Below, one piece after another: positions 20,434 to 49,110 of a stretch of 64,000 nucleotides of DNA. The translations under genes and the position numbers were made by a program. Under the pieces are notes generated by a model that was not told where the DNA came from, did not search any database, and saw only the letters and a list, made by a program, of their open reading frames with translations. How positions within the stretch are numbered: the first letter of the stretch is position 1; the number at the start of each line of letters is the position of its first letter. Origin of the DNA: Roseicyclus marinus (GTDB lineage: Bacteria; Pseudomonadota; Alphaproteobacteria; Rhodobacterales; Rhodobacteraceae); NCBI RefSeq assembly GCF_030163795.1, contig NZ_JASJOF010000012.1, positions 1 through 64,000 on the forward strand, in the 5' to 3' direction.

Positions 20434-20436
20434 CGC

Positions 20437-32271: not shown

Positions 32272-32290
32272 TACGTCCATATCTGACGTA
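32272..32290. promoter_or_regulatory. inverted repeat upstream of the defence-like operon
   Basis: tacgtc-catatct-gacgta, a 6-7-6 inverted repeat ending 38 bp before the ATG of the AAA+ gene. Candidate operator, for example for the WYL regulator encoded second in the operon. Confidence 0.4.
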
Positions 32291-32302
32291 TCGTTGTGAC
32301 AC

Positions 32303-32321
32303 CTCCGTAGTAATGACGGAG
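32303..32321 (+). promoter_or_regulatory. hairpin that can hide the ribosome binding site of the AAA+ gene
   Basis: ctccgt-agtaatg-acggag: six base pairs whose 3' arm includes ggag, the ribosome binding site seven bases before the ATG at 32329. Folding would limit translation of the operon's first gene. Confidence 0.4.
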
Positions 32322-32328
32322 ACGAGCA

Positions 32329-34332
32329 ATGCCGCACGAACAGTATATCGCCCTAGAAATGATAGCTCGATTGGCCAACCGTTTCGGTCCTGCCAGCCGC
32401 ATAGCAAAGGAACTGCCCGGATGGCTGGAGTACCTGACAGAAGTCGAGTGTCCCGAACGGCCCCGTAGCCGACCAAGCTCGCAATGGTGGAACAAAATCA
32501 GGACTATGGCGCACGACTTGGTGCCGACCGCGGGGGGTGGCGAGGGCGAGGTGGTTCAGCGCAATGCAACCCTTCTTGGCGAGCACTTCGGGCTAACAGC
32601 GACCGAAACATCGATGCTCATCTTCGTCGCTTTCTACAAGTTGTTCGACGGATTCGAGCATGTCGTCGATGGCGCGCTGGACACCAAAGAAGTCACCGTG
32701 CCGCTGCTTTTGTCATGGTTCTGCGCAGAGCCCGAGCCTGAAATCCGCTCAGCCATGCGGGCGTCCGGCCGACTGACAAACTCGGGATTGGTGCAGCGCA
32801 ACAGCGGCGGGCGTCACCGCCGGATGCCGTTCGATCTCTCTGATCGCTTGACCCTGGCGCTACTTGCCGAAGTCGATTGCATTACCGACCTGATAGCCCT
32901 GATGTTCCCGCGTGCAGCTAAGCCGCAGGCTCAATGGCAAGATTTCGAAGGTCTAGGCCAGGACGCGGACCTGATGCGTGACCTGCTATCAAGCGCGCTG
33001 GCCAAACGCCAACCCGGCGTACACATTCTTCTCTACGGCCCTCCTGGGACAGGGAAGACCGAATTCGCCAAGGTGCTCGCGCGTGAGGTCGGTGCCGAAC
33101 TGCGCGCGATCGGCGAAACGGACAATGAGGGAGGCGAGCCGTCACGCCGGGAGCGTTTAGCTGAACTCGCCATGGCATCTCGTATGCTGGGGCAAAGATC
33201 GGATACCGTACTGCTGTTTGACGAGATGGAAGACCTGATTGGTGGGCAGGGCTTCCGCTTTAGCCATGACATGCCGTCGAAGGTTCATTTCAACCGAATT
33301 CTTGAAACCAATCCGATCCCGGTGATTTGGACCACGAATTCGGTTCACTCCTTTGACCCTGCCTTCCTGCGGCGGATCAGCTACTCGGTGCTGATGCGCC
33401 CGCCATCGGGCCGCGTGCGCACGCGTATCTGGCAACGCCTCGAAGAGCGGCATGGTGTCGGGATACCGGACGCCGCCCTGCCGGATATGGCGGAACGGCA
33501 TGATCAGGCCCCGGCGCTTGTTTCGGACGCGATGGCGGTGGCAAGGCTTTGTGATGGTGGGCCTGCTGTTGTCTCGCAGATACTTGATGCCGCCGCCCGT
33601 CTGGCAAAGGGCGGAGCCGATAGCGCGCCGCGCCATTATTCAGAAGTGCCTTGGCAGGAGGACCTGGCCTGCGCCGATGTTGATCTAGCCCGGATCGAAG
33701 GGCAGCTAGCTCGGGCGGGCACACCGCGCCGGGTCAGCTTCTGTCTTGAGGGACCGGCGGGGACCGGCAAAAGCGCATGGGCACGGCATCTGGCCCGGGT
33801 CATCGGCATGCCGGTCATCGAAAAGCGCGCCTCGGACCTCATTTCGAAATGGGTTGGCGAAAGCGAGCAGAACATCGCGCGGGCCTTTTCTGACGCACGC
33901 GCCGAGGGTGCCATGCTCATTTTCGACGAGGCTGACAGTCTACTGGCTGATCGTCGTGGAGCTGAACGCAGCTGGGAGGTGAGCCAGGTCAATGAGATGC
34001 TGACCTGGATGGAAAGCCACCCGTTGCCCTTCGTCTGCACTACCAACTTCGTCGAAAAGCTCGACCCTGCCACACAGCGCCGGTTTACCTTCCGCATACG
34101 GTTCGATTTTCTCTTAGCCGATCAACTTCCGCTGGCTTGGTCTGCGCATTTTTCATGTTCGCCGCCGAAAGACTTGTCTACGCTTGATCGACTTGCTCCG
34201 GGAGATTTCGCGAACGTAGCCCGCAGAATGCAGGCACTGGGTGTTGCCGACCCAGAGGAGATCCTGCGCGCTCTTATCCTTGAGGATGAGGCAAAGACAG
34301 GAACAACGCGACCGATTGGCTTTAGGCGTTGA
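32329..34332 (+). CDS. tandem AAA+ ATPase
   Basis: 667 aa. After a helical N-terminal region of about 200 residues come two AAA modules. D1: Walker A GPPGTGKT (237-244), Walker B VLLFDEMEDL, sensor-like IPVIWTTNSVHSFDPAFLRR. D2: GPAGTGKS (475-482), WVGESEQNIARAF pore/linker element, Walker B MLIFDEADSLLADRR, VCTTNFVEKLDPATQRRF with an RR finger. Both sites look active. The D2 wording is that of Cdc48/spastin-like unfoldases or remodelers. First gene of the eight-gene set; probably an ATP-driven remodeler or a sensor. Cellular target unknown. Confidence 0.85.
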   Translation: MPHEQYIALEMIARLANRFGPASRIAKELPGWLEYLTEVECPERPRSRPSSQWWNKIRTMAHDLVPTAGGGEGEVVQRNATLLGEHFGLTATETSMLIFVAFYKLFDGFEHVVDGALDTKEVTVPLLLSWFCAEPEPEIRSAMRASGRLTNSGLVQRNSGGRHRRMPFDLSDRLTLALLAEVDCITDLIALMFPRAAKPQAQWQDFEGLGQDADLMRDLLSSALAKRQPGVHILLYGPPGTGKTEFAKVLAREVGAELRAIGETDNEGGEPSRRERLAELAMASRMLGQRSDTVLLFDEMEDLIGGQGFRFSHDMPSKVHFNRILETNPIPVIWTTNSVHSFDPAFLRRISYSVLMRPPSGRVRTRIWQRLEERHGVGIPDAALPDMAERHDQAPALVSDAMAVARLCDGGPAVVSQILDAAARLAKGGADSAPRHYSEVPWQEDLACADVDLARIEGQLARAGTPRRVSFCLEGPAGTGKSAWARHLARVIGMPVIEKRASDLISKWVGESEQNIARAFSDARAEGAMLIFDEADSLLADRRGAERSWEVSQVNEMLTWMESHPLPFVCTTNFVEKLDPATQRRFTFRIRFDFLLADQLPLAWSAHFSCSPPKDLSTLDRLAPGDFANVARRMQALGVADPEEILRALILEDEAKTGTTRPIGFRR

Positions 34333-34380
34333 CGCAAAGTGCGCCGTCAGAATGATTGTACTGTATTGCTAGGAAGAGTC

Positions 34381-35364
34381 ATGCGCTACGCTCGCCAAGA
34401 AGATTTGCAACGACTCGCTCTGATAATGCAGGGGTCAGCGGAGGGGATTTCGCTTTCCGACATAGAGCGAGAATTCAGCGTATCCCGTCGCACGGCAGAA
34501 CGCATGCGTGATGCCGTACGTAACGCCTACCCTCAAATTGAGGAAATCTCTGGCGATAGCGGTCGAAAATACTGGCGCTTCCCGCCGGGATCATTGGGTC
34601 GCATGGCCGAACCCACGCTTGATGAACTGACCGCCGGCCACCGCGCTGTCGCTATTGCGCGGCGCGAGGGAGATGAACTAACAGCGGAAATATTGGAGCG
34701 CCTTTTAGTAAAGGTGCAGGCAATGTTCCGCGAGGATCGCCGCCGTTTGATTGCTGCTGACCTTGAAGCACAGCTATTGGCTGACGGAGTTGCCTTTCGA
34801 CCTGGACCTCGTGAAAAAATCTCCTCTGAGATTTTATCTACAATTCGCGAAGCGATCCTTGCAGGGGTCATGATCTCTGCTGATCATCGCGCCCGTACTT
34901 CGGCAAAGCTTTCACGCAACACCCGGCTCGGCCCAATTGCCATGTTATTTGGTCAAGGGCGCCAATACCTTTTGGCTTGGAGCGAATATCAGGACGATCT
35001 TCGACTGTTTGCGCTTGCTGGTTTTGAACGGGTTTCGTTGGAGCCCGAAATCTATGAGCGCCCCAAAGGATTCGATCTGCAGGAATGGCTATCAGAGAGC
35101 TTTGGTGTGTGGCGGGAAGAACCGCTTGATGTCGTCTGGCGGTTTCTGCCGGACGTTGCCGATGAAGCTGCGGGATATCTGTTTCATCCCAAACAGCAGA
35201 CCGAGCGGAAGGATGACGGGTCACTGATTGTCCGTTTCCGCGCAGGAGGACGGCAGGAAATGGAATGGTATCTAGTGAGATGGGGAGATCAGGTTGAGGC
35301 GCAATTCTTGGAGATTTCGGTTAACACTTCGTCCGATACGACCGAAAGTGACGTGTTCAGGTAG
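34381..35364 (+). CDS. WYL-domain transcriptional regulator
   Basis: 327 aa from the ATG at 34381 (aggaagag site); a longer frame to 34339 is unlikely. HTH at about 20-45 (SLSDIEREFSVSRRTAERMR), then RKYWRFPPG. WYL core: TRLGPIAMLFGQGRQYLLAW; WCX-like end DVVWRFLPDVADEAAGYLFH, with VRFRAGGRQEMEWYLVRWGD. Clear paralogue of 24591-25586 (same HTH, same Y/T-LFHP ... E-MEWYL-RWGD ending). WYL regulators of the BrxR type repress defence operons until phage infection. Located second in the operon, so autoregulation of the cluster is likely. Confidence 0.85.
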   Translation: MRYARQEDLQRLALIMQGSAEGISLSDIEREFSVSRRTAERMRDAVRNAYPQIEEISGDSGRKYWRFPPGSLGRMAEPTLDELTAGHRAVAIARREGDELTAEILERLLVKVQAMFREDRRRLIAADLEAQLLADGVAFRPGPREKISSEILSTIREAILAGVMISADHRARTSAKLSRNTRLGPIAMLFGQGRQYLLAWSEYQDDLRLFALAGFERVSLEPEIYERPKGFDLQEWLSESFGVWREEPLDVVWRFLPDVADEAAGYLFHPKQQTERKDDGSLIVRFRAGGRQEMEWYLVRWGDQVEAQFLEISVNTSSDTTESDVFR

Positions 35365-35400
35365 TAGTCTCAAGTCGAATCAACAAGGAAAGAACACCGC

Positions 35401-36969
35401 TTGCTTCGTAACAGCACGTCTCACCCCCTTCGCATCGACAGCTTGCCCGTTGGCAACGGTCATCTCGGCCTGACCCTATGTCCTGGCAAGAAAGGCGACA
35501 GTGTCTTCGGCGCGGGATGGGACCGCGATCTGGACATTGATCTCGATGTAATCACGGCGTGGGGCGCGCAAGCCGTTGTAACCCTAGTCGAGGACTCGGA
35601 GTTAGAGCTGCTTTCCGTCACAGGTCTCGGCGATGCGGCCAAGGCACGAGGTATGGACTGGCACCACTTCCCGATCCCCGACCTGGATGTACCAACGCCA
35701 AAGGCCAAGGCGCGCTGGCGCCAATTGGCGCCCCGCCTTCACAGCATTCTGGAAACAGGCGGCCGTGTGCTGGTCCATTGCCGAGGGGGACTGGGGCGTG
35801 CGGGAACCGTTGCCGCGCTTCTGCTGGTTGATCGCGGGCATCCAGCAGGTGAGGCCATGGCCCTCGTCCGTGCCGCGCGGTCAGGAGCCATTGAAACGCT
35901 GGTACAGGAACGCTTTGTTCGCGACTACGCCCGACATGACGGGTTATCGCTTATCCGACTGCATGCCAGCCTTCTGGGTGGGGCGATCGGAGACAGTTTG
36001 GGTGCCGATATCGAATTCCTTTCTCTAACCGAAATTCGCCAACGTTTTCCGAACGGAATTTCGGAGTTGCCAAAACATATGGGGCTGTACGGCGCCATTA
36101 CCGATGACACCCAAATGACCCTGTTTACGGTCGAGGGGATCATCCGCGCGCAGGTCCGCGGCATTCTCAAGGGTAGCTGCCACCCGCCGTCTGTGATCCA
36201 TCACGCACTGCTGCGTTGGTTCAAAACCCAAGGTTGCGAACCGCAGGTTCAAACAGATGATGTGGGGCTGATGAATGACCCGCGCCTGCGGGTCTGCCGC
36301 GCGCCTGGCAATACCTGCCTGTCATCCCTGGCCGCGAGCGCGCAGTTTGGGGACCATGCGCGAAACAACAGCAAAGGATGTGGCACCATTATGCGAGTGG
36401 CCCCGATCGGCTTGATGTTCCCCCGAGAACAGGTTCGTGCGATGGCCGTCGAGACATCTGCTTTGACGCATGGCCACCTGACCGGTCAGCTTGCAGCTGC
36501 AGCCTGGGCAGAAATGCTTGCCGCCGTCATGGCAGGTGCCGACCTTGAGGAGAGTGCGACCCGAACTGCAGAGATATATGCGCGACTAACCGGGGGCGAA
36601 GAGACTGCTCGGGCAATTCAAGCTGCGCTCCACGCGCCGCGGGACGGTTCGGGAGAAACCGTTGAATCTCTGGGTGGTGGATGGATCGCTGAGGAGGCGC
36701 TGTCCATCGCGCTCTATGCCTGCCTCGCCGGAGAAACCTTCGAAGAGGCCCTGCTGATTGCCGCCACCCATGGTGGAGACAGCGACTCAACGGCGGCGAT
36801 TGCCGGCAACATGCTGGGGCTGCTTGATCCTGCGGCCGTGCTTCAACACCGCTGGGCCGAGATTGTTGAAGGCGCAGACATCATCTCGCAACTGGTGCGG
36901 GATTACAGGGACCTCACATCTGAAAGCGGTGCGGCCGAGGATCTCTTCGAGGTCTATCCGGGTGGTTAG
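35401..36969 (+). CDS. protein-phosphatase / ADP-ribosylglycohydrolase fusion
   Basis: 522 aa from a TTG start (aaggaaag upstream) that preserves the conserved SHPLRIDSLPVGNGHLGLTL opening. N-terminal 180 residues: cysteine-dependent dual-specificity phosphatase (CDKN3-like) with D94/D96 as acid and the P-loop VHCRGGLGRAG (C127, R133). C-terminal 335 residues: ADP-ribosylglycohydrolase/DraG fold with GGAIGDSLG (193-201), TDDTQMT (234-240), and HGGDSDSTAAIAGNMLGL for the metal site. It would remove ADP-ribose from a protein or nucleic acid and phosphate from a phosphoprotein or RNA. Both active sites look complete. In this setting it may reset a modification switch of the system. Confidence 0.88.
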   Translation: MLRNSTSHPLRIDSLPVGNGHLGLTLCPGKKGDSVFGAGWDRDLDIDLDVITAWGAQAVVTLVEDSELELLSVTGLGDAAKARGMDWHHFPIPDLDVPTPKAKARWRQLAPRLHSILETGGRVLVHCRGGLGRAGTVAALLLVDRGHPAGEAMALVRAARSGAIETLVQERFVRDYARHDGLSLIRLHASLLGGAIGDSLGADIEFLSLTEIRQRFPNGISELPKHMGLYGAITDDTQMTLFTVEGIIRAQVRGILKGSCHPPSVIHHALLRWFKTQGCEPQVQTDDVGLMNDPRLRVCRAPGNTCLSSLAASAQFGDHARNNSKGCGTIMRVAPIGLMFPREQVRAMAVETSALTHGHLTGQLAAAAWAEMLAAVMAGADLEESATRTAEIYARLTGGEETARAIQAALHAPRDGSGETVESLGGGWIAEEALSIALYACLAGETFEEALLIAATHGGDSDSTAAIAGNMLGLLDPAAVLQHRWAEIVEGADIISQLVRDYRDLTSESGAAEDLFEVYPGG

Positions 36970-37080
36970 ACATATGGGGGAATATTCGAAATGCTTCGAT
37001 TGAGAGTTCGAAAGAGAATGACCTTGGCCACACAAGCCATTGATTTAAAATAATATCCCAATACACTATCAATTTGCACG
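36970..37080. promoter_or_regulatory. AT-rich gap between the two halves of the operon
   Basis: 111 bp with repeated ttcgaa (about 36985 and 37008) before the AddB-like gene. Long compared with the zero gaps downstream, so a second promoter is possible here. Confidence 0.3.
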
Positions 37081-39642
37081 GTGAGCCCGAAATCCATGTT
37101 TTACCCTTTTCTCGTCGCCGACCCCCGCTCCGGCCTGCAGTATCGTCTGACTAATACCGGTCTTGCAGAGCTATCCCTTGCCCCCAAAGCCCAAGAATGG
37201 GCGCCGGGGCGGGTGATGGCGGAAGACCCTCACCCGGTCTGGCGCGAGAGCCTGGCCAATGCACCGGTCGAGACAATGTCGGCCGTCAGCGGGGCGTTGG
37301 AAGGTCTGGTGCTGGCCACTGCCGATCTGCGCGTTCCATCAGCGGGCGCGATGGGCGACAGCCGTGCAGGGCGACATCTGGATGCTATGATCGCACTTTG
37401 GCGCAAGTTGGGTGACGCATTGCCCGAGGGGCTGGCCGCGGTCCGCCATGTTCTGGACCTGCCGCATGGGCGGTTTCTTGACCCATTGCCGGTTGTTGAA
37501 GGGTCCCTTGACCCGCATGCACCAGCCGCGATGAAGGCGCTTTATGGAAGACTTAAGGATGAATTCGGGGCTGTGGCGGCGCCCGCCAAGGCGCGCGCGG
37601 CGCGTGAAGGATTGCGGCTGCACGCTTTGCAGGGCGGAGTAGCCGAGGCCGCAATCGAGGCCGCGCCAAAGGATGACAGCCTCGCCTTTTATGGTTTGCG
37701 CGATGTGGCTGCCTGCGCTGACTTTGCGGCGGCCCGTGCGCGTGCCCTGATCGAAAGTGGCATCCCGGCACGGGAGATTGCTGTGCTGGCCTCTGGTGAC
37801 CCACGCCAGATCGCCCGTGCCTTTGCCGAGCAGGGCGTGCCGATTTCAGGGCTTCCCGGCAGCCTGCCAGAGCGCGACCTCGTTGGTGAAACAGCACTTC
37901 AACTTGCGTTAGCTAAGCGCACACCCACACCTGCGATGGTCCTTGCAAGTCTCGCATTGTCACCGCTGATGCCTTGGTCAGCCCAAACCGGGCGCGACCT
38001 TGCCGAAAGCATTATGAATGGTGACTTTCGCGGTGATATCCTGTCGCCCAGCCCTGCGCACAAAGACCTCTGGACGGATATTCGCTCATCCGCCAGCAGC
38101 CTTGCGCAACTGCGTTTCCTGATCGACCGTATCTGTGAGCGCATTGCGCAAGGGAACGAGGTTCGAGCCCGTCTGTCGATCCCGCCCGGCGAGGGTAGCC
38201 CAGACTGGGAAGCTATCCTGCGCGGTATCCAGATTGCATCCCCGTCAAGTGCCGATCCAGAGCGCAACCTTGAAGGTGTAAGCCTCTGGTCCGCGCACGA
38301 AACTCCGTGGCGGCAATGCCGACATCTGATCATCACGGATTTCACCGACGGTCAGTATCCGACCCGACCTCGCGCCAACCCGCTGTTTCTGGACAGCGAA
38401 ATCACTGCAATTCGAACCACCACCGGTTTGCAGCTTCGCGGGAGGGCAGAGGGTTTGGCTGAAAGCCTCTTCCTCTTTGACCAGCAGCTTCAGGCGGTTG
38501 CGGAGTCTGTGACATTTCTAGTCCCGTGGCGCGATCTGTCGGGCGTGCGGCAGCAACCTTCAGCTGGGCTATCACTGGTCGCACGCGCAATATCGGATGT
38601 AGAAGAAGCTCATGATCTGATCCTCGACCTGTCGCGCCTGCCGCCCGGCGACTGGCCTGTGGCACATCACCGTCTGCCACCGTTGCCGGAATCGGACGAA
38701 CTCCCCGAGGCGCTCTCGTTCCCAGGCCTCGACCTGTTGGCGCTCCGTCGCAAAGATGACGGAACAAGCAAACCTCAGTCACCCTCACGGCTGGAAACAC
38801 TTCTGGTCAGCCCGCTGGCATGGCTTCTGGACGAGGTTGGCGCGGGCGACATGTCTTGGTCCGCTGAGGAACTCGATGTGATGGCCAAAGGCAACATTGC
38901 CCATGACGTGTTTGAACATGTGTTCCTCAAGGACCGACCCCTGCCAGAACCTACGGCACTGACAGCTGCAGTTGCCGAGGCCTATGATCGAGCGTTGACC
39001 CGCCATGCTGGGTTTCTGCGAAGCGCATCATGGGAAATGGAGCGCGGCGGGCTCGAGCGTGAGATCCTGCAGGCGGCGCTGCGCTGGCGCGAACATCTGC
39101 TGGCGCTTGGCGCAAAAATCATCGGCAACGAGATCTGGCTGGCGGGTGAGGCGCATGGCATCAACCTGCACGGTAAGGCCGATGCGATCCTTGAGTTGCC
39201 AGACGGTACGCTTCTTGTCGTCGATCACAAAAAAAGCGGCACATCGGCCCGGCGTAGGCGAATGGAGGCAGGGTGGGATCTGCAAGCAGGGCTATACCGA
39301 GACATGCTCGCCCGTCCTATCCGGCGCGACGGCGACGGGATGGACCCGCTGATTGGCCGACAGGTCGGTATTGCCTATCACCTTATGAATGATGGTGGGC
39401 TCTTAACCTCCGGGCATGTGCCTGCAGAAGGATCTCCCGCCCACGACATAGGCGACGCCGTCAACGATGCGGCTGTTGCGATGCTTGCTGAACGGCTGGC
39501 GCAGCTAGGGGCCGGCCGGGTGGTGCTGAATACCTCAGCAGATGAAGGCTTTTTCAAGAAAGAAGCAGGATTCACGCCCTATGCGCTGACCGATGGCTCG
39601 ACCCTGGTTACCGCGTTCATCCGCCAGATCGAGGAGGTATGA
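37081..39642 (+). CDS. AddB-like inactive-helicase/PD-(D/E)XK nuclease
   Basis: 853 aa; GTG start, internal ATG at 37096 possible. N-terminal two thirds have the layout of AddB/RecC-type degenerate UvrD helicases without a Walker A: YGLRDVAACADFAAARARAL, EIAVLASGDPRQIARAF, WRQCRHLIITDFTDGQYP. The C-terminal third is a RecB-like nuclease: SRLETLLVSPLAWLL, then GKADAIL (about 698) and VVDHKKSG (about 714-721), the D ... D-x-K core. Partner of the downstream AddA-like protein (ATGA overlap). It lacks visible iron-sulfur cysteines. A dedicated DNA-end-processing complex is implied. Confidence 0.8.
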   Translation: MSPKSMFYPFLVADPRSGLQYRLTNTGLAELSLAPKAQEWAPGRVMAEDPHPVWRESLANAPVETMSAVSGALEGLVLATADLRVPSAGAMGDSRAGRHLDAMIALWRKLGDALPEGLAAVRHVLDLPHGRFLDPLPVVEGSLDPHAPAAMKALYGRLKDEFGAVAAPAKARAAREGLRLHALQGGVAEAAIEAAPKDDSLAFYGLRDVAACADFAAARARALIESGIPAREIAVLASGDPRQIARAFAEQGVPISGLPGSLPERDLVGETALQLALAKRTPTPAMVLASLALSPLMPWSAQTGRDLAESIMNGDFRGDILSPSPAHKDLWTDIRSSASSLAQLRFLIDRICERIAQGNEVRARLSIPPGEGSPDWEAILRGIQIASPSSADPERNLEGVSLWSAHETPWRQCRHLIITDFTDGQYPTRPRANPLFLDSEITAIRTTTGLQLRGRAEGLAESLFLFDQQLQAVAESVTFLVPWRDLSGVRQQPSAGLSLVARAISDVEEAHDLILDLSRLPPGDWPVAHHRLPPLPESDELPEALSFPGLDLLALRRKDDGTSKPQSPSRLETLLVSPLAWLLDEVGAGDMSWSAEELDVMAKGNIAHDVFEHVFLKDRPLPEPTALTAAVAEAYDRALTRHAGFLRSASWEMERGGLEREILQAALRWREHLLALGAKIIGNEIWLAGEAHGINLHGKADAILELPDGTLLVVDHKKSGTSARRRRMEAGWDLQAGLYRDMLARPIRRDGDGMDPLIGRQVGIAYHLMNDGGLLTSGHVPAEGSPAHDIGDAVNDAAVAMLAERLAQLGAGRVVLNTSADEGFFKKEAGFTPYALTDGSTLVTAFIRQIEEV

Positions 39643-42600
39643 CCATGGACGGAGCAGATTTAGACCGAGGGTTGGTCATCGTTCCCGCCGGCGCGGGCGC
39701 GGGAAAAACCCATCGTATCAAGACCCAGCTTTCTGACTGGGTGAAACGCAAGATCGTACGACCCGAACGCATCCTTGCGGTGACCTTTACCGAAGCCGCT
39801 GCGGGCGAATTGCGCGAACGTATCCGGGCGGGTCTCCTGGCGGACGGGCTGGTCACCGAGGCCATGGCCGTGGAGCGCGCATATGTCTCTACCATCCATG
39901 GTTTGGGCCTGCGTTTATTGACGGAACATGCGCTAGCAGCAGGTGCATCGCTGCAACCGCGTCACCTTGGCGATGCCGAGCGCGAGCTGCTGATCCGGCA
40001 GGCGCTGGCCCATGCTAAGTCGCTTGATCCGATCAAGGCCGAACCCGAGCGGTTCGGATATCAGCCCAACTGGCAAAAAGGCGAAACGGTCGAAGATTCA
40101 CTACGGGGCCGGGTTCTGTCGATGATCGACCTGTTACGGGGGCTCGGTGACAAAGGCCGTGATCCCGGGCTGATCGCACCCGCATTAAAGCGGCTCGATG
40201 AAATCTACGGCAAGGTGATCGCAGACCCCACAGCCGCCCGTGATGCGTTGGCGAAGGCGGTTGCTACCATGCTCACTGCCTTTCCGGACGGTGGCATGGA
40301 CGGCGTCACAGCGAAGGGCCCCCGCGAGACGCTGGAAAACAATCTGGCCCTGTTTCGCCGTGTCGAACGTGATCCGGCGATGCTGGATCGGGACTGGAGC
40401 GTTTGGCAGTCCCTGCGCACTCTCTTTATCTCGAACCGGAATTCAAAAACACCTGATGGCTATGACGATCTTGCTCTTGCGATCATGCAGGCTGCCGAGG
40501 TGCTGCCGTCACATCCCGGCCCCTTGGCCGATGCCAAACTACACTTTCATTGCCTGATCGCCTGTGCGCAGGAAGTGATGGAAGCTTATGAGACACGCAA
40601 AAAGGCGCTTGGGCTGATTGACTATGCCGACATGATTGCAGGCGCCGAGCGGCTTTTGCGGACCGATCCGGCAGTGCGACAGGCCGTGCTGGATGAAATC
40701 GACTGCGTCATCATCGACGAATTCCAGGACACCAACCCGGTGCAATTCGCGCTGCTCTGGCAGCTTGGTGCCCACGCGCCGCGCACCCTGCTGGTGGGGG
40801 ATGTCAAACAGTCGATCATGGGTTTTCAGGGCGCTGATCCGCGCCTGTCTCAGGCGCTGGCGGCGGCCAACCCCGATGCGACGCAGCCCCTTGACCGCAA
40901 CTGGCGGTCTACACCGGCGGTGATGGACTTCGTCAATGCTATGGGCGGCGGGCTGTTTGGCGCAGGCTACAACCAGTTAGCCCCGACGCGTGATCCGGTG
41001 CCTGGTCCGGCGCTCGAGGTCTTGAACATCGTCAAGGGTCGCGGGGTAAGAAAGTATTCGAAGCCGCAAGAGCATGTTGCAGAGCGCATCGCCCAGATCT
41101 TGCAGGTGGGGGAAACGATCACCGACCGGCACAGCAAGGCCCCAAGGGGCGTGCGCCCCTCTGACATCGCTCTTCTGGTCTGCCGGCACGCGACCGCAGC
41201 CCGCTATGCCGAGGAATTGCGCGCTCGCGGCGTACCTGTCCGCATTGCCGAGGATGGCTGGGCGACAAGCCCGGTTTTTCAGGCGGCTCGCGCGGCGCTC
41301 AGCTATGCCGCGAACCCAGCCGATACGAATGCCGCGCTGGTCCTGCGCACCCTCGGCCCCGATCCGCTCAGCCTACAAGCCGCCATGCAAGCGAAGATCC
41401 AAGGGCGGTTGGAGGATGATCCGATCCTCCTGCGCCTGGCGGCGCTGTCGAACCGCCTTGCTCGCTTGCCAATTTCCGATGCAGTGGACCTGGTGATCAA
41501 TGCTTCTGGGCTGCGTATCTGGGCTAACCGTCAGCGCGACCCAGCACAGGCGCGTGCGGACCTTCTGCGGCTTGAAGCCGAAGCGAGCGACTTCGAATCC
41601 GCGCACCGTGATCTCAAGGCGGCAGCCGGTTTCCATGGCGAAAGCGCCAAGGTGTTTCTTGGCTGGCTGGATGCCCGCGCCAGCGAGCGCGATTTCGACC
41701 GCCGTCCCGACCCCGCCGCCAACGGCGCCGAGGCGGTCGAGATCGTCACATGGCACGCCAGCAAGGGGCGTGAATGGCCGATAACTGTGGTCGCGGAATT
41801 CGACCACGGGATCGAAGACTGGCCGGGCAGCACCGCGACCCGGTTCACCGCGCTTGACGAGATCGACGATATGGACGTGGTGCTGGCCTCAGCCGCACTG
41901 ATCCACACGCCGGGATTTGCCGCCCCGGAGGCCGAGCGACGGTTCATTGAGGATCGGCGTGCGGATTTCGAGGCAAATGCGAAGAACCTTCTTTACGTCG
42001 CCCTGACCCGGGCACGCGACCGATTAGTTCTGGAGTGGCCAAGCTTCCTGAACGAGCGTGACGAGGAAGCTCCGGAAGCCAAATGCCTATTCCATGTGTT
42101 CATGGATGCCTGTGCGCCACAGATCGGTGGTGAAACACTGCGCATCGGTGGGATCGAGTGTCCGGCCATCATCAGGCAATTGCCCGAACACGCGAGCTTC
42201 ACCGCGTATTCAGAGACCGAGATCACGGATACACCACGGCTCGGCCGCGATACCCCCTTGCCTGCTGTGGACTTGACCCCCTGGAGGTTGCAGCCATCGC
42301 AAGCCACCACGGCCCTGCCTGCACCAGAAAGCCAGGTTATCAGCTTGGGTAAGCCATGGCCGAACACAGTTAGTGACGCGGCCCGTGGGACAGCCATCCA
42401 CCTTGCCTTGCGGACTTGCCTGACGCGGTCTGATCTAACTGAAGCCCTGCCCAAGGCAACCGGATTGGATGACGCAATCCTAGCGCTGGTCGCAGAACGG
42501 GCGGCGGCGCTGAAAGCCTGGCTTGCGGCTCATGGCTACACTGATCTACTTTGTGAAATCCCTCTTCTCGGACGTACCAAAGAGGGTGCGGAAATTCCCG

Positions 42601-42836
42601 GCATGATCGACCTGTTAGCAGTTGGGCCGAAGGGATGCCTGTTGATCGACCACAAGACCGGCGGTGCGGGTGAGGGCTTCGGCCTCTACTGGCCGCAGCT
42701 TTCTGCCTATGCCGGTCTGGCGGCACAACTGTTCCCGCAGCGCCCGCTGCAAGGTTTAGCTCTGTTCTGGATAGACCATGGGCGGCTGGACCTGGCGCAG
42801 CTACCTGCCGCCGAACAGAAAGTTATCATTAAATGA
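39639..42836 (+). CDS. AddA-like UvrD helicase with C-terminal RecB-type nuclease
   Basis: 1065 aa. SF1A helicase motifs: Walker A PAGAGAGKT (16-24), LAVTFTEAAAGELRERI (Ia), STIHGLGLRLL, VIIDEFQDTNPVQ (about 356-368), LLVGDVKQSIMGFQGADP, DRNWRSTP, VEIVTWHASKGREWP and LLYVALTRARDRLVLEW. C-terminal nuclease: IPGMIDLLAVGPKG followed by LLIDHKTGGAG and QLSAYAGLAAQL. Composition equals AddA, but here the gene is fused by overlaps to non-recombination partners, so it is not the housekeeping AddAB. Overlaps the previous stop and the next start as ATGA. Confidence 0.88.
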   Translation: MTMDGADLDRGLVIVPAGAGAGKTHRIKTQLSDWVKRKIVRPERILAVTFTEAAAGELRERIRAGLLADGLVTEAMAVERAYVSTIHGLGLRLLTEHALAAGASLQPRHLGDAERELLIRQALAHAKSLDPIKAEPERFGYQPNWQKGETVEDSLRGRVLSMIDLLRGLGDKGRDPGLIAPALKRLDEIYGKVIADPTAARDALAKAVATMLTAFPDGGMDGVTAKGPRETLENNLALFRRVERDPAMLDRDWSVWQSLRTLFISNRNSKTPDGYDDLALAIMQAAEVLPSHPGPLADAKLHFHCLIACAQEVMEAYETRKKALGLIDYADMIAGAERLLRTDPAVRQAVLDEIDCVIIDEFQDTNPVQFALLWQLGAHAPRTLLVGDVKQSIMGFQGADPRLSQALAAANPDATQPLDRNWRSTPAVMDFVNAMGGGLFGAGYNQLAPTRDPVPGPALEVLNIVKGRGVRKYSKPQEHVAERIAQILQVGETITDRHSKAPRGVRPSDIALLVCRHATAARYAEELRARGVPVRIAEDGWATSPVFQAARAALSYAANPADTNAALVLRTLGPDPLSLQAAMQAKIQGRLEDDPILLRLAALSNRLARLPISDAVDLVINASGLRIWANRQRDPAQARADLLRLEAEASDFESAHRDLKAAAGFHGESAKVFLGWLDARASERDFDRRPDPAANGAEAVEIVTWHASKGREWPITVVAEFDHGIEDWPGSTATRFTALDEIDDMDVVLASAALIHTPGFAAPEAERRFIEDRRADFEANAKNLLYVALTRARDRLVLEWPSFLNERDEEAPEAKCLFHVFMDACAPQIGGETLRIGGIECPAIIRQLPEHASFTAYSETEITDTPRLGRDTPLPAVDLTPWRLQPSQATTALPAPESQVISLGKPWPNTVSDAARGTAIHLALRTCLTRSDLTEALPKATGLDDAILALVAERAAALKAWLAAHGYTDLLCEIPLLGRTKEGAEIPGMIDLLAVGPKGCLLIDHKTGGAGEGFGLYWPQLSAYAGLAAQLFPQRPLQGLALFWIDHGRLDLAQLPAAEQKVIIK

Positions 42837-44164
42837 CAATACAATGGGGCATGCTGGCGCCTGAAAGCGTCAAGCAGTCGCGCAGAAGACTGACGCTGGG
42901 GCTTGGCAAGGCAGTCATGCTCTACAACGAAGCTGCGGTTCCCGGACTTGGCGGGATGTGGTTTATACGCCAAGCGGCGCTCGCGCTTCTCGGCATTAGA
43001 ATCGCGGAAGAGACCGCACATGCAGGAAGCAAGATAGAAGTCGCCAACGCCATAGAGGCTCTCGCCTGCTGGATCGGCTATCAGGAGAGAGACTGGAGCC
43101 GTGGAGATTGGAGACTGCGGGGGTCACGCAAGCTCAAGGCATTGCAAGATGGAGGGTCTGATCGGACCTTTCGTCGGCTGAAGTCACAGTCGGCCTATGT
43201 AACCCAACCCATGCGCATGGGCTGTGTCCAAGCGCTCCCCGCGCTTGGACTTGTTGATGCGAGCGGGTCCAGATTCAACAGCTTTTCTGTCAACGTTCGC
43301 GGACAGCAGCTTATTGATGCCGTTTTCGGCGAAAGCGGCCGAGGGAAGCGGTACCTTCCCGATTATCTTCGCGACTGGGTGCTCAATGAACCGGTGAACT
43401 TTACAGCCTCTCTTCGCCAAAAACTCAATCCAACAGCCGATGCGGGAGATGATGCCCGCAAGGTAATGCGTGAGGCGCTGGCGTTCCCCGGAGCAGGCGC
43501 CGAGCGTCGTCATGACGCTCTAATCTGGACGGGGAGAATCGATGGAGGCGACGGTTTTGGCACGATCCCAGACACCGACTGGGGAAATCAACCCGCCGAG
43601 ATCGACGACAACCACTGGAAGGATCTGCAAGCAGGAGCAGCCCTCCTTCAAACCCGCGACGCTGCTATCGGTGTGTTGGCAAATATCGAACAGGAACTTA
43701 TCGCCCATTCACGTCTTGACCTGACGCGAGCGCTTCCTGAAGGGGTGTCGGCCTCGTTGGAAGCGTGGCGCAAGGAAGCGCAGCAGTTTCTGGAACTTGA
43801 TGGTCACGGGCCGGATGATGCGGCTGCAGCGGCACGCGATTTTTGCACCGAAGCACTTCAATCCGACGTTCATGCGATCAGGATGCTCGTGAAACGGGAG
43901 AACCACATGTTGCGGGTGACCGGCAGCGTTGTCGTTCCGACTGCTGCGTGGCGGACAGATGCTGCTCTTCGCGTGGACGACGCTACGCACGACGGGTCCG
44001 ATCTCGAAACCGACTCCGATGGCAGAGAGGACGCTGCGCCCATGCGCGCCGAGCGTGATGTCCTGCCACCTTCGATCTCTCCGCGCATAACTTACCTGCG
44101 ACGCCTGTCACTAGACCTTGACGGACGGCTCGGAACGTTCATCGAAGCCCAGGGTCAGAACTGA
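42833..44164 (+). CDS. unknown operon protein
   Basis: 443 aa, starts MTIQWGMLAPESVKQSRRRL. N-terminal part WFIRQAALALLGIRIAEETA and VANAIEALACWIGYQERDW appears helical; the middle KRYLPDYLRDWVLNEPVNFT may be winged-helix-like; C-terminal stretch acidic. No recognised family. It takes the position that DUF6361-type proteins occupy before PLD and SNF2 genes in Azaca-like loci, but I see no sequence likeness to DUF6361. ATG overlaps the upstream TGA and its TGA overlaps the next ATG. Probably a DNA-recognition or adaptor subunit (inference from context only). Confidence 0.6.
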   Translation: MTIQWGMLAPESVKQSRRRLTLGLGKAVMLYNEAAVPGLGGMWFIRQAALALLGIRIAEETAHAGSKIEVANAIEALACWIGYQERDWSRGDWRLRGSRKLKALQDGGSDRTFRRLKSQSAYVTQPMRMGCVQALPALGLVDASGSRFNSFSVNVRGQQLIDAVFGESGRGKRYLPDYLRDWVLNEPVNFTASLRQKLNPTADAGDDARKVMREALAFPGAGAERRHDALIWTGRIDGGDGFGTIPDTDWGNQPAEIDDNHWKDLQAGAALLQTRDAAIGVLANIEQELIAHSRLDLTRALPEGVSASLEAWRKEAQQFLELDGHGPDDAAAAARDFCTEALQSDVHAIRMLVKRENHMLRVTGSVVVPTAAWRTDAALRVDDATHDGSDLETDSDGREDAAPMRAERDVLPPSISPRITYLRRLSLDLDGRLGTFIEAQGQN

Positions 44165-46224
44165 TGGCCGTTCCACATCTGCCCCTTTCTCTTGTGGAGC
44201 ATGCTGCACCCCCGACTGACATGACCGGCCATGCAGGATGGATTTGCGGGTTTTCTGCCGACGCAGATTTCATGGAGGCGTTCGTCGAGCGTTTCACTGG
44301 CCAGGGTCGATCGGCACGCGCTGAACTTGGCCGCACGTTCATTGGGCTCTGCCTTGACCGTTCGCAGGCACAGATCCCTCCTGGCGAAGTGCCAGGCGTC
44401 CTGCATCTGCCCGCCCGTAACAATGCCCCGCCCTATCGCCTTATGCATGCGAAGGTTGCGCTTTTGGCATTTCGCAGCCCGACCGATGAAAGCAAATGGG
44501 CTCTGCGCTTGCTTGTTACCACGGGCAACTGGACCCGGCAGACCACCGAAGATAGCATCGACCTCATCTGGCGGCTCGATCTGGCGGCGGAAGATATTCT
44601 TGCGCGGGAACCGGACGACGCGCTCGAGCAACTGCGGACTGACATGGCCGCGGCGCGCGATTTCTGGCGTTGGTTGCGGCTCCAATACCAGTGCCGGCTT
44701 TTAGAAGGGGACGCCGAGGCCGGAAAGGCACAGAAAACTCAAAGTGCGGCATTTGCCGAATTGGAGCGCTGGACGAACCAGCTGAAACCCCGACCTAATT
44801 CAACGCCACGCTTCATCGATACGAGGCAGCAAGCTCTGATTGCCCAACTTGTGAGTCGCGTAAAAACACATGCTGGATCGCAGCGCCGCAACAACCTCGT
44901 TCTTGGGTCAGGATTCTGGGAAGGGGGGCAGACCGCAGGCTTGCCAGTTGTTCCCCAAGCGATCGCCAATGCGCTTATAGATGCCTCTCTCCTTAGCCGA
45001 TCCGCGAAGATCACACTTGTGGTAGAGAGCGACAAATGCGCAGCACTGGCCGATGAGCAGGTTTTCAAAAGGATGCGCAAAGCGAGTTGGTCGCTCCTGC
45101 GTCCGCTGAAGACTGACGGCGACATGAGGCGCCTGCATGCCAAATTCCTTTTTTCAGCAAACCGCCACGCAGATGGCAGGCGCTGCGCCTCCGCCTGGGT
45201 CTATCTGGGCTCAGGAAATCTCACGCCTGCCGGTTTTCTCGCTGCCCCGCGCTACGATGGCAATCTAGAAGCCGGGGTCATAATGGCTGCAGACGGTTTA
45301 AGCTGGGAACCTGCCGGGACCAAGTCCCGCCTGGTCCCAGTCGGCGACCTTCTACCCGTCGATTGGGACGCTCACATCACCGATCTTTCAATGCTAACTG
45401 CAGGAGACGGTCCACCTGAGCGAGACACGCGCTTCATCGCAGCGCCTGTCTCCCATCTTGTCTGGATACCCGGCGAGACGGTCGATTTTCTTGCAGTGCC
45501 GCAAGGCGAGGACGCCACAGGGTTAGTGATACTGGGCACGAGCAACGAAGCTCTTACTCAGAACGCTTCTGGACAGTTTCTGTGGAGTGGCGAACAGCCG
45601 GTGCATGTAGGCGTGCGTCGCCCAGATCAGAACGACGATGCGTCAACTGTCCTGGTTCCCGTGTTGGACGGCTATGGACGGCTTGCTGCGCGGCCGCTGG
45701 AGCCGATTGATCTCGAGCAAGCCATCGAACTACTTGATTGCTTTCCTGCTGTGCCAGATGGCGGGGACACCGAAGACGACGAAGATCTGCCAGCGCTGCC
45801 GAACACCAGAAAACCGCCGAGCGCGGCTAGGCGCCTGGCACCGGACGGCCATTATGCTATCCGGCGAACCATGCAGCTGATCGAGGCGATTGCTGAACGC
45901 CAGACGATGGTGCCCCAATCGGATTGGATTAGTTGGACACAGCGGCTGCAATGTGTGCTGACGCAATTGGGCAGAATGCCCGAGCGTGGAAATGTTGGTC
46001 GACACCATGACAAAGAAGCGACGAGAGGCGCACTGGTCGAGGCACTGCTCCCACTAAAGATCAATCCCCTTTCCTGCCTGCGGGAACCGCCATTCCTGCC
46101 GGACTACGTAAAGCGCGGTAGCACTGAGTTCTCGGCCATTCATGAAGCCTTGAGTGCCGCTGAAGCCAACTGGGAGGTGACCAAATTCGATGGGCTGGAA
46201 CGCAAGGTCTCTGATGGTTGCTAA
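44164..46224 (+). CDS. Tdp1/PLD-like protein with two H-K-N motifs
   Basis: 686 aa. Two half-sites: H95-A-K97 with N122 (MHAKVALLAF ... TTGNWTRQTTED), and H325-A-K327 with N352 (RRLHAKFLF ... YLGSGNLTPAGF). H-x-K followed by Asn rather than Asp is the tyrosyl-DNA phosphodiesterase 1 version of the phospholipase D motif, which breaks DNA-protein or other 3'-phosphodiester adducts. The C-terminal third is unassigned and contains an acidic patch (GGDTEDDEDLPAL). Coupled by a one-base overlap to the previous gene and overlapping the SNF2 gene. PLD plus SNF2 pairs occur in DISARM and similar systems. Confidence 0.78.
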   Translation: MAVPHLPLSLVEHAAPPTDMTGHAGWICGFSADADFMEAFVERFTGQGRSARAELGRTFIGLCLDRSQAQIPPGEVPGVLHLPARNNAPPYRLMHAKVALLAFRSPTDESKWALRLLVTTGNWTRQTTEDSIDLIWRLDLAAEDILAREPDDALEQLRTDMAAARDFWRWLRLQYQCRLLEGDAEAGKAQKTQSAAFAELERWTNQLKPRPNSTPRFIDTRQQALIAQLVSRVKTHAGSQRRNNLVLGSGFWEGGQTAGLPVVPQAIANALIDASLLSRSAKITLVVESDKCAALADEQVFKRMRKASWSLLRPLKTDGDMRRLHAKFLFSANRHADGRRCASAWVYLGSGNLTPAGFLAAPRYDGNLEAGVIMAADGLSWEPAGTKSRLVPVGDLLPVDWDAHITDLSMLTAGDGPPERDTRFIAAPVSHLVWIPGETVDFLAVPQGEDATGLVILGTSNEALTQNASGQFLWSGEQPVHVGVRRPDQNDDASTVLVPVLDGYGRLAARPLEPIDLEQAIELLDCFPAVPDGGDTEDDEDLPALPNTRKPPSAARRLAPDGHYAIRRTMQLIEAIAERQTMVPQSDWISWTQRLQCVLTQLGRMPERGNVGRHHDKEATRGALVEALLPLKINPLSCLREPPFLPDYVKRGSTEFSAIHEALSAAEANWEVTKFDGLERKVSDGC

Positions 46225-48856
46225 GTCGGGCAAATTCGCAGGATGGGGATCTGTTGCCGCTAACATCAGCGGATCACAAGAACCACCATTGTTTCCGCAA
46301 GGCTATCTCGATGAGGGTCAGCTCGACGCGTTGAAAGCTTTGTCGGCATCCTTGAGAAATCACGGTGCCGTGCTCGCCGATGAGGTGGGAATGGGCAAAA
46401 CCCGGATCGCCGTTGCTCTCGCCCTTGCGGTAAAGCGTAGCGGTGGCAGGGTTGCATTGGTTGTACCGCCGGTCGTCGCCCCGCAATGGCGCGACGAGAT
46501 CACGAAGGCAGGCGAAAGTTCTAAAGATATTTTGCGCAGCTTTGACGGCTTGATGCTTGAATATGAAACTGATGGCGCGGAAAGAATGGATGATCCCCTC
46601 GTGATCCTTTCGCACCGTTTTGGCGACGTGCGTGCGCAAACGTCCGGAATAAGGTGGCGTGCCGATCTCCTAAAGCTGATCGTTCGAAGGCTAGACAAAA
46701 AAATCAGAGGTGGGTGCCAGCTCGCACATTGGCGAATGCCGGGCGTCGAACTAGCGGCAAAAGAAATTTTTAAGCGGGCACAGAAATGCCAACTTACGGA
46801 GACTTCTGTTGAGGCGATCGTCCATGAATTCCGAGACATCGATAAACGCTCTGAGCTCGATGATTTTCAGTCTGACCGCTTTAAGAACCATTCGACCGAG
46901 CTCAAGTTGCTCGAGCGCACTCTCGGGCTTGCTCTTGGCCCTTTCGACCTTGTCATCATCGATGAAGCTCATAAGTCACGTAGCGAACGGGGAAAGTTAT
47001 CGGCGCTTCTGGATAGCATCCTTTTCCCGCGTGGCAAAACATGCCGCCGCCTGGGTCTAACGGCGACTCCGGTCGAACTTGACGTGTCGCAGTGGGAGGG
47101 CACGCTAAAGCGCGTTTCCATGTCTGACAACAAATGGATGTCCATCAAACCTGCCGTTTTGGAGTTTCGCGAAGCTGCCGAAGCAGTGCGTAGTAGATGG
47201 CGTACGGACGAAGTAGCGCATCATCGTTACAAGGTCGCCGCGACGAATTTTCAAGAGAGTCTGGAGGCTTGGGTCGTACGCCGGGACAAGCGGCGTGATG
47301 AAACCATCATGCTGTTCGACAAGCATGCGCCCAATGGAATAAACTACCGACGAGAGCAGCCGATCGAAGTTCAGCCCGGGGATTTGTCGCCGGATTGGCG
47401 GCGCATCGTCTTTGCCGCCGAGGCACTGTCAGTCATCGGCCAGGCGGAGGCTGATACAAAAGCGGCGCGTGCGCGGCTGACAATCAGCAATGGCCATGGG
47501 GTGGCTGGGATCATCGACAAACTGGCCAGTCAGCAGGCGGACAACAGGCACCCCGAAGATCATGAAGCCGATCGCCTGCAAGTGAAAGAAGACTGTATCG
47601 AAGATGGTATCGAAGCCAGTGCGGAACTTACCGCGGAACAATATGGCGCACAAAAGCGAAAGCAACGCGCAGATTGGTGGAAGAACACGCTGACTGCGTC
47701 ATTCACCGATGGCACTGAAAGTCTTTATGAGCATCCGGTCCTTCTGGCAGTTGTTAATGAGATTGAAAACTACACGCTCACCGGAGAAAAAGTGCTGGTA
47801 TTCGGACGCTTCACGCGCCCCATGCGCGTGTTGACCGATCTTCTCAATGCGCGAGCCTTGTTACGGGCGGTGCGGGACGGAATGCCATGGCCACAGGAAA
47901 AGACGTCAGACTACGATCAAGGTGTATTGCGTGCAGCAGCTAAGCAACTCGAAGTCGAATACGATCGCGAGCGCGTCGATGACATCCTAACCGCTTCCTA
48001 CAAAACCTTTGAAACGGAACGTCAGACGCTGCGCGATCACATACTGGCCCTTATTGAGAGCGGAGCAACCGGCCAGCCAACACTGTTACAGGCCATTGCG
48101 AGTGACGAGAATACGTCTGAAATCGTCACACCACTGGCTCGGGCAGCCGAGCCCTTGCTTCGGGAAGAGGCTTCGGGAACCAGAATATCACGCGAAGCGG
48201 TAGTCGAAGCGCTCACTCAGGTATTCGATGCCCTCCGCGAGCGCGGCGAAGGAAACGCGCAGGACGAAGAACTAGAGGGCATATCTGAGAAGGCGTTGTG
48301 GGCACAGCTTCGGAAGAGACTGATAGAGGAGTACAGTTCCCCTCGAGCCTTATTCGCTCGGATGCTCTACGGTCAGACACTGTCTTCCACGCGACGTCTG
48401 GTTCAGCTTGCATTCAATCGCTCAGAGAGCGAACCACATGTGCTTATCGCCCAATCCATGGTTGGACGCGAAGGACTCAATCTTCACGAAAGCTGCCGAG
48501 TCGTCATTCTACTCCATCTCGAATGGAACCCGGGAGTGGTAGAACAGCAAATCGGCCGTGTCGACCGTAGGAACAGCTATTGGTCACGTCTCCTGAAGGA
48601 GGCAATAGATGCAGGTAGCCAAGATTTGCCGCGAATAGAAATTCGGCCCGTGATCTTTCGGGGTACGTATGACGAGCATCATTGGTCAGTACTGTCACGG
48701 CGTTGGGACGAACAACGGTCACAACTTCACGGACTTATTGCCTCTGGAGCAGATCGTGAAAACCTTAGCGAAGAGGAGAGTAAGCTTCTACAGTCGCTCG
48801 AAGAAAAAAGCCCCGACTTCTGGCCGAAGCCCCCCGGTGCAGCGTTAATACACTAG
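46190..48856 (+). CDS. SNF2-family helicase/translocase
   Basis: 888 aa from ATG 46190, or 880 from ATG 46214, which has the better site (aagg). SF2/SNF2 motifs: Q-like GYLDEGQLDALKAL, Walker A LADEVGMGKT (62-71), Ia VALVVPPVVAPQW, DEAH IIDEAHKSRS (about 258-267), LGLTATP, then GREGLNLHESCRVVILLHLE (V) and QQIGRVDRRNS (VI). A 200-residue helical insert separates the lobes. These enzymes translocate on double-stranded DNA and expose it to partners. Last gene of the overlapping set. Its stop is followed by a broken HD gene, so the operon end may be truncated. Confidence 0.88.
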   Translation: MGWNARSLMVAKSGKFAGWGSVAANISGSQEPPLFPQGYLDEGQLDALKALSASLRNHGAVLADEVGMGKTRIAVALALAVKRSGGRVALVVPPVVAPQWRDEITKAGESSKDILRSFDGLMLEYETDGAERMDDPLVILSHRFGDVRAQTSGIRWRADLLKLIVRRLDKKIRGGCQLAHWRMPGVELAAKEIFKRAQKCQLTETSVEAIVHEFRDIDKRSELDDFQSDRFKNHSTELKLLERTLGLALGPFDLVIIDEAHKSRSERGKLSALLDSILFPRGKTCRRLGLTATPVELDVSQWEGTLKRVSMSDNKWMSIKPAVLEFREAAEAVRSRWRTDEVAHHRYKVAATNFQESLEAWVVRRDKRRDETIMLFDKHAPNGINYRREQPIEVQPGDLSPDWRRIVFAAEALSVIGQAEADTKAARARLTISNGHGVAGIIDKLASQQADNRHPEDHEADRLQVKEDCIEDGIEASAELTAEQYGAQKRKQRADWWKNTLTASFTDGTESLYEHPVLLAVVNEIENYTLTGEKVLVFGRFTRPMRVLTDLLNARALLRAVRDGMPWPQEKTSDYDQGVLRAAAKQLEVEYDRERVDDILTASYKTFETERQTLRDHILALIESGATGQPTLLQAIASDENTSEIVTPLARAAEPLLREEASGTRISREAVVEALTQVFDALRERGEGNAQDEELEGISEKALWAQLRKRLIEEYSSPRALFARMLYGQTLSSTRRLVQLAFNRSESEPHVLIAQSMVGREGLNLHESCRVVILLHLEWNPGVVEQQIGRVDRRNSYWSRLLKEAIDAGSQDLPRIEIRPVIFRGTYDEHHWSVLSRRWDEQRSQLHGLIASGADRENLSEEESKLLQSLEEKSPDFWPKPPGAALIH

Positions 48857-48871
48857 GAGAAGCTATTAAAC

Positions 48872-49110
48872 CTTCAACGCGCCATCGAAATCGCTGCGGA
48901 AGCCCACCGGGAACAAACCGACAAGTCCGGCGCGCCGTATCTGCGACATCCGCTCCGGGTTATGATGTCATTGTAGACCGACCACGAACGGATCGTTGGG
49001 GTCCTGCATGACGTGGTCGAAGACGGCCCCGGCTGAACATTCGAGCGCCTTGAGGAAGAAGGGTTCTCGCCGCCTGTGCCAGAAGCCTTTTGCTTTCTGA
49101 CCTGCTCCCC
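48872..49110 (+). pseudogene. RelA/SpoT-like HD hydrolase remnant
   Basis: Frame LQRAIEIAAEAHREQTDKSG, APYLRHPLRVMM, TAG, then ERIVGVLHDVVED, TGA, and ERLEEEGFSPPVPEAF. This is the N-terminal HD region (HD in LHDVVED) of small (p)ppGpp-hydrolase-like proteins. Two in-frame stops (after 49010 and about 49038) and loss of the rest show decay. It starts 16 bp after the SNF2 stop, as if it once belonged to the same operon. Confidence 0.65.

Follow-up and report, generated by a model that had tools for sequence, protein, structure and literature searches.

The described systems closest to the operon treated here are Azaca (ZacA, ZacB and ZacC), DISARM, BREX and PDC-M27, together with alphaproteobacterial AddAB for two of its genes and DriD-type WYL activators for a third. 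The operon lies at 32329-48856 of a 64,000-nucleotide stretch of Roseicyclus marinus DNA (the window; positions 1 to 64,000 of contig NZ_JASJOF010000012.1) and consists of eight genes in three modules, A (g1-g3), B (g4-g5) and C (g6-g8, the triad). The locus is real, recurrent and modular, and it is probably defensive. Module C is exchanged as a whole, and in three relatives an Azaca system stands in the same slot, overlapping the end of g5. The reading that we favour, and that gene content and neighbourhood make moderately probable, is that of a defence operon built of modules and carried on DNA that moves horizontally, in which a portable B would be combined with restriction effectors that can replace one another, among them the Azaca-like C. 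The eight open reading frames (ORFs) are the following (aa, amino acids):

32329..34332 (+): g1, module A, 667-aa ATPase with tandem AAA+ domains and two Walker A/B sets, CDC48/IetA-like
34339..35364 (+): g2, module A, WYL-WCX transcription factor of 341 aa, matching PDB 8tp8 at E 5e-47
35401..36969 (+): g3, module A, 522 aa, an optional fusion of a dual-specificity phosphatase and an ADP-ribosylglycohydrolase
37081..39642 (+): g4, module B, AddB-like PD-(D/E)XK nuclease of 853 aa
39639..42836 (+): g5, module B, AddA-like UvrD helicase with a C-terminal PD-(D/E)XK domain, 1065 aa
42833..44164 (+): g6, module C, 443 aa, fold not recognised, start overlapping the g5 stop
44164..46224 (+): g7, module C, PLD superfamily protein of 686 aa with two Tdp1-type HxK...N motifs, distant relative of ZacB
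46190..48856 (+): g8, module C, SNF2-type translocase of 888 aa

The ORF list of the window thus bears out the original prediction, which had placed eight same-strand genes over this span, and the overlaps that it had claimed for the last five agree with the intergenic distances, which from g1 to g8 are 6, 36, 111, -4, -4, -1 and -35 bases. The starts of g2-g4 (GTG, TTG and GTG) are mechanical longest-ORF picks and are putative. The domain list was upheld by Pfam, PADLOC and NCBIfam, g6 alone being without a useful match. A promoter and terminator scan gave no excess over shuffled sequences (7 seen, 6.4 expected; 15 seen, 17.6 expected).

Module C shares with Azaca its three-gene order and its size classes (about 400, 600-700 and 900-1100 aa). 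The g7 protein matches ZacB in 12/12 members (best 2e-10) and by hhalign with a probability of 90.7 over 131 columns, which remains a partial match. Like ZacC, g8 is of SNF2 type; the hhalign E value of 6e-10 comes from an alignment of only 70 columns at the final helicase motifs, and in PADLOC the ZacC model reaches 6.8e-8 with other helicase models scoring higher. However, g6 is not detectably ZacA: with the shallow profiles available, none of nine members matches any PADLOC model at E<=1, and hhalign against ZacA gives probabilities of 0.3 and 0.2 (E 0.19 and 0.37). The window operon also differs in carrying five further genes. Plain Azaca was therefore not accepted, since g6 fails the ZacA test, and C, which resembles Azaca in anatomy and slot, is not classed as Azaca. 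The resemblance is closer than had been guessed, in that true Azaca occupies the same slot in three relatives, but it does not extend to homology between g6 and ZacA. The triad might still represent a divergent Azaca subtype, making the locus Azaca plus accessory genes. Common order, size classes and slot, the g7-ZacB matches and the short g8-ZacC alignment speak for such a subtype, which is compatible with the favoured reading; given the partial g7 and g8 matches and the lack of any detectable relation of g6 to ZacA, we consider it possible but somewhat doubtful.

In combining a SNF2 translocase and a PLD-type protein, the operon also recalls DISARM, and g8 is similar to DrmD/DrmA in its helicase motifs (DrmD models up to 2.7e-16). 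Scans of the eight proteins (for g1 and g5, the best 25 families) revealed neither DUF1998 (DrmB) nor a methyltransferase, so that the DISARM likeness proposed earlier is a poor fit that comes down to the g8 helicase resemblance. PglZ, BrxC and PglX of BREX were likewise not found among the eight proteins. Membership of DISARM or BREX was rejected because their defining genes were not found in this set. The best PADLOC match of g8 is the PDC-M27 helicase model (4.4e-20), but neither g6 nor g7 matches any PDC-M27 model, and since a bona fide ZacC matches the same helicase model at 4e-20 the similarity is generic. With PADLOC 2.0.0 (2023), g3, g4 and g6 have no match and the remaining matches are partial or generic, in agreement with the earlier statement that no named system covers the whole set. 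Among the papers listed by full-text searches of a literature without most subscription papers, titles and abstract openings describe neither the set nor an AddAB-like pair behind Azaca. Passages of PMC12839542, PMC12458937 and PMC3710099 deal with other SNF2/PLD systems. By their abstract openings, reports on Druantia III with Zorya II via shared DNA intermediates (PMC13192584) and on Gabija and phage antagonists of RecBCD (PMC12407980) make the connection of defence with end-processing machines a current topic.

Module B is related to alphaproteobacterial AddAB. The g5 protein includes a UvrD helicase (3.6e-44) and a weak C-terminal PD-(D/E)XK domain, with helicase and nuclease motifs retained, while g4 ends in a PD-(D/E)XK domain (PDDEXK_1, 1e-16) whose nuclease motif is retained in 11/11 copies. 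AddB carries an iron-sulfur cluster, but no cysteine is common to >=70% of the g4 copies in the nuclease region. Moreover, g5 scores 157.7 bits against TIGR02784, below the equivalog cut-off of 860.75, whereas the chromosomal AddA of the host scores 1169.6 bits, above it. The possibility that g5 is the host's own AddA is therefore ruled out. Since a full AddA is already encoded on the host chromosome, g4-g5 constitutes an additional machine, which also differs from AddAB in being mobile and sparse.

Searches of 72,556 plasmid records, of genomes and of IMG/VR identified the triad in 16 independent loci: the window, L001, L002, L003, L004, L006, L007, L008, L009, L010, L020, L025, L029, L030, L047 and L070. 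One locus with the same ORFs as L003 (L046), three that repeat L020 and L025 (L005, L031, L032) and a remnant (L048) were left out. The g6 gene adjoins g7 in 16/16 and g8 comes next in 16/16, counting a g8 cut by the contig end (L029), an interrupted g7 (L008) and a split g6 (L030); in Paracoccus versutus (L020) g6 and g7 are fused into one 1004-aa protein. Searches with g7, with the window g6 and with the Desulfosarcina g6 each return the same 7 of the 72,556 plasmid records, while g8 returns those 7 plus two partial matches, in Paracoccus aminophilus and Azospirillum. In IMG/VR the g6, g7 and g8 profiles all reach one triad-bearing contig, two more g8 matches being short (L033, L034). The three genes thus travel together. 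They are sparse: g6 was found in 2/292 genomes (window g6, 0.001), 2/398, 4/394 (one a fragment) and 1/78, and the window g6 had no match in 50,697 phage-collection records. Module B is commoner than C: at E <= 1e-30 it turns up in 17 of the 390 genomes searched from the order. A partial g4 is present in Thioclava (L019).

The other genes accompany the triad less regularly. Module B lies beside it in 13/16 loci, g1-g2 in 11/16 (including the truncated g1 of L001 and a weak WYL match of 53 bits in Pantoea) and g3 in 8/16. All eight genes are found in 7/16 (the window, L002, L003, L006, L010, L025 and L047), a count that includes a g1 with an in-frame stop (Leisingera L006, 3484-5487) and two genes cut by the fetched flank (g1 of L002, g5 of L025); loci without all eight lack g3-g5, g1-g3 or more, and among them L029, L030 and L070 were viewed to the limit of the contig or fetched stretch. 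The genes of the set do recur together across loci. For the neighbours of the 443-aa g6 the co-occurrence is total with g7 and g8 and incomplete with g4-g5, g1-g2 and g3. The notion of one whole eight-gene system did not survive, as the modules have separate histories; a single fixed system of this kind is ruled out by their modular occurrence. Gene order also varies: it is g1 g2 g3 g6 g7 g8 g4 g5 in L025, and in P. versutus the fused g6g7, g8, g4 and g5 are followed by convergent g2 and g1 on the other strand. Broken copies occur, with g7 interrupted in Novosphingobium pSA1 (L008, 15661-17989) and g6 split in genome G286 (L030, 5550-6763).

Comparison with the Leisingera plasmid (L006) exhibits a clean cassette swap of g6-g8. 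The two are 93.4% identical in DNA over 32275-42714 of the window, and identity returns at 91% from 48845 to 49089. Between these limits the proteins share 31% (g6), 29% (g7) and 35% (g8) identity. The borders are:

42700..42836 (+): left swap point, last ~130 bases of g5, where identity to the Leisingera plasmid falls off
48841..49089 (+): right swap point and common flank, where 91% identity to the Leisingera plasmid is back at the end of g8

Mixed identities are observed elsewhere. For the Fuscovulum locus (L010), identity is 63-81% in A and B but 29-33% in C; L025 shares A with L010 (74-86%), and B and C with L020 (84-92%). In L047, which has all eight genes, g6 is 404 aa long, as in L006-L008. 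Identities are similar among the genes inside each module, and, with nine taxa, the B tree and the C tree each reject the topology of the other (approximately unbiased test, p 2.6e-52 and 1.3e-48). The swap, the mixed identities and the conflict between trees identify A, B and C as units of exchange, C being replaced whole. Separately, a short 80% match links 63794-63994 of the window to 20174-20374 of L006, just past the flank of the Leisingera triad, and may represent a rearranged shared backbone.

The junction between B and C is constant. The start of g6 overlaps the stop of g5 in 11/11 loci, by 1 or 4 bases (59 in L010 by the annotated start; in L006 the plasmid's own annotation sets the g6 start three bases later, the overlap still being 1), and in the reverse order g8 overlaps g4 by 4 bases in 2/2 (L020, L025). 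The total is 13/13 triad loci holding B, a raw count that comes without a background rate for unrelated neighbouring defence genes. This start/stop overlap probably reflects coupled translation. Where B is absent, the overlap of g6 is with the WYL gene in Pantoea (4 bases), and in Desulfosarcina g6 lies 140 bases after g1.

Seventeen B neighbourhoods were viewed, as far as contigs reach. The triad follows g5 in 3/17 (G000, G286, G989) and Azaca, with ZacA, ZacB and ZacC all recognised by models built in this analysis, in a further 3/17 (G128, G233, G016). PADLOC independently identifies the trio of L076 (ZacA 1.5e-118, ZacB 8.6e-165, ZacC 0) and the ZacA of L078. The ATG of ZacA overlaps the g5 stop in 3/3 Azaca loci (L076-L078), the mechanical ORF of L078 opening further upstream. 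Another locus, L080, shows after g5 the stop/start junction of L076 and the first five ZacA-like codons, then unrelated sequence; tblastn found no longer ZacA remnant there. This is suggestive at most, and L080 may be a lost Azaca cassette. In the remaining genomes with a recognised neighbour, g5 is followed by McrBC (1/17, G144; Pfam McrBC 2e-22, with a 29-residue remnant of the g6 N-terminus in between), by a GmrSD/SspE-like protein (1/17, G216; HEC-06 5e-42) or by PDC-S26 (2/17, G242 and G958). The PDC-S26 gene of G958 overlaps g5 by its longest ORF. For McrBC, the GmrSD-like protein and both PDC-S26 neighbours the functional link to B is weaker.

Other defence genes are found near B. On plasmids where B occurs without C (L014-L018), its neighbours are a TIR protein encoded on the opposite strand (L014), a WYL protein with a TIR gene beyond (L015), a GmrSD_N protein one gene away (L016), AAA+WYL (L017) and a WYL protein (L018). 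BREX genes lie directly upstream of g4-g8 in L007 (annotated brxC-pglX-pglZ-brxL) and in L008 (pglX, pglZ and brxL by ORF reading). Downstream of the triad of L007, a Haematobacter plasmid, genes for a reverse transcriptase, an ATP-dependent endonuclease, a UvrD helicase and an ArdA antirestriction protein are carried at 21264-27943.

For the favoured modular defence operon we infer an antiphage function divided among the modules, with incoming DNA as the presumed target. As an AddAB/RecBCD-like helicase-nuclease, B would unwind and degrade DNA from ends. That such an end-consuming machine is joined to restriction-type effectors of several kinds points to a scheme in two steps. In the first step C would find and cut or unblock incoming DNA, with g8 as translocase, g7 as phosphodiesterase and g6 perhaps in recognition or as an adapter. 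In the second, B would consume the breaks or 3'-blocked ends left by C. The g2 regulator probably gates expression on single-stranded DNA (ssDNA), so that ssDNA made by processing would raise expression. The g1 ATPase may remodel or reset complexes. Removal of ADP-ribose, and perhaps of phosphate marks, would fall to g3, plausibly against phage ADP-ribosyltransferases. Self may be spared through control of expression.

Several observations weigh against this reading. Pantoea and Desulfosarcina carry A and C without B, and C occurs without A or B upstream in L029 (G454); B is therefore not obligatory for C. In the window A and B are separated by a 111-base gap without overlap, and the overlap count between B and C is a raw one. 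McrBC, the GmrSD-like protein and the PDC-S26 of G242 lie 366, 228 and 176 bases from g5, with no overlap. Nothing was recognised after g5 in 7/17 B genomes: g5 was not found in G100, contigs end in G977 and G1004, there was no PADLOC match in G123, G895 and G891, and the ORF lay outside the search in G739. No modification enzyme or methyltransferase was found among the eight proteins, which leaves self/non-self discrimination unexplained. Finally, AlphaFold models are poor for g6 and g7 (mean predicted local distance difference test scores, pLDDT, of 40.4 and 36.7).

A stronger version of the modular defence operon can be proposed tentatively, as a possibility that we rate below the general reading. 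It supposes a plug-in architecture, in which an AddAB-like chassis, often with a WYL switch, would offer a fixed docking junction, the overlap at the end of g5, and unrelated effectors would be swapped by homologous recombination. Such effectors would be Azaca and the g6-g8 triad, perhaps also McrBC, GmrSD-like and PDC-S26 proteins, and any effector so loaded would be supplied with host-independent end degradation. The modular reading connects a dedicated RecBCD-like machine with Azaca, which is poorly understood, and with a relative that has no name. It makes a long-standing question testable, whether restriction-type systems depend on end-degrading nucleases to finish invading DNA and whether mobile islands come with such nucleases themselves. 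Because the two backbones are 93% identical, the natural swap offers an experiment, already set up, on the role of the cassette.

Alternatively, three independent systems (AAA-WYL, the AddBA-like pair and the Azaca-like triad) could simply lie side by side in a defence island without a joint mechanism. Unrelated systems do cluster in such islands, the histories of B and C are incongruent, and the modules are seen apart (Pantoea and Desulfosarcina have A and C, L014-L018 have B but not C, and L029 has C with neither A nor B upstream). We nevertheless consider this unlikely, because B and C overlap in 13/13 loci and in both gene orders, g5 and ZacA do so in all three Azaca loci, and L025 and P. 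versutus keep the modules together despite rearrangement. AddAB-like proteins and Tdp1-type motifs have precedents in DNA repair, which counts towards a third explanation. This would be an operon for DNA repair or mobile-element maintenance, combining end resection with clearance of adducts between protein and DNA, controlled by a WYL switch that responds to DNA damage; DriD and ssDNA provide a precedent for the switch (PMC12340889). It is improbable, since a patchy, often plasmid-borne spread, whole-cassette replacement and the sharing of neighbourhood or slot with Azaca, McrBC, GmrSD-like and BREX genes are marks of conflict systems.

The catalytic motifs checked in the individual proteins are intact. 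Walker motifs of g1, g5 and g8 are retained across relatives and the CX5R and DSDST motifs of g3 in 6/6 aligned copies, gaps being confined to truncated or interrupted copies (g1 of L001, g7 of L008 and the cut end of g5 in L025). In module A, g1 matches PF00004 at 1.5e-39, its top defence model being a partial IetA match (2.1e-29), and g3 carries DSP-PTPase and ADP_ribosyl_GH (9.9e-66) domains. The g2 protein has WYL and WCX domains and aligns over nearly its full length (residues 11-321) to 8tp8, labelled a 'DeoR-family' WYL regulator, which we take to be the Caulobacter ssDNA sensor DriD. The same preprint reports that DriD is activated by ssDNA bound in its WYL domain (PMC12340889). By analogy with DriD-type WYL activators, g2 is likely an ssDNA-sensing switch, its domain content and 8tp8 match providing the likeness and its ssDNA binding being predicted. 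The 'BrxR-like' label given to g2 in the original prediction was too specific, the closest solved structure being 8tp8. In L010 a gene annotated as HEPN-domain lies between g3 and g4 (7425-8213), without a Pfam match at 0.001.

In module C, the window g6 gave nothing in Pfam, PADLOC or NCBIfam at 0.05. Nine g6 members gave just six scattered Pfam matches, one member each (best E 0.03), and one PDB chain was reached at E 1.5. A 'LPALGLV' segment, short strands and a 'G..L' pattern lead us to suspect that g6 may hold a winged helix. The window g7 matches PLDc_2 (2.8e-6) and ZacB in PADLOC (1.3e-8), and has no sequence match in PDB. Its motifs are H95/K97/N122 and H325/K327/N352/E369, the pair of HxK...N and the following E being invariant in 12/12 aligned members. 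Pairs of HxK...N are typical of Tdp1 and not of HKD phospholipases; by its sequence motifs g7 is of the former type.

Elsewhere in the window, a 1243-aa SbcC/Rad50-like ATPase (PADLOC LmuB 9.3e-29) adjoins an SbcD-like metallophosphatase (16702-21708 and 24591-25586, both on the minus strand). Near this pair is another WYL protein, with 33% identity to g2, and the three are possibly a further defence unit. A similar ATPase-exonuclease-WYL trio is annotated a few kb from g4-g5 in Ochrobactrum (L016). An Exonuclease I-like protein and two Nudix-NrtR-type proteins are encoded at 3192-4583 (-), 6785-7990 (+) and 10586-11770 (-). The region is flanked by transposases, IS66 at 49999-51522 (-) and DDE at 8362-9372 (+).

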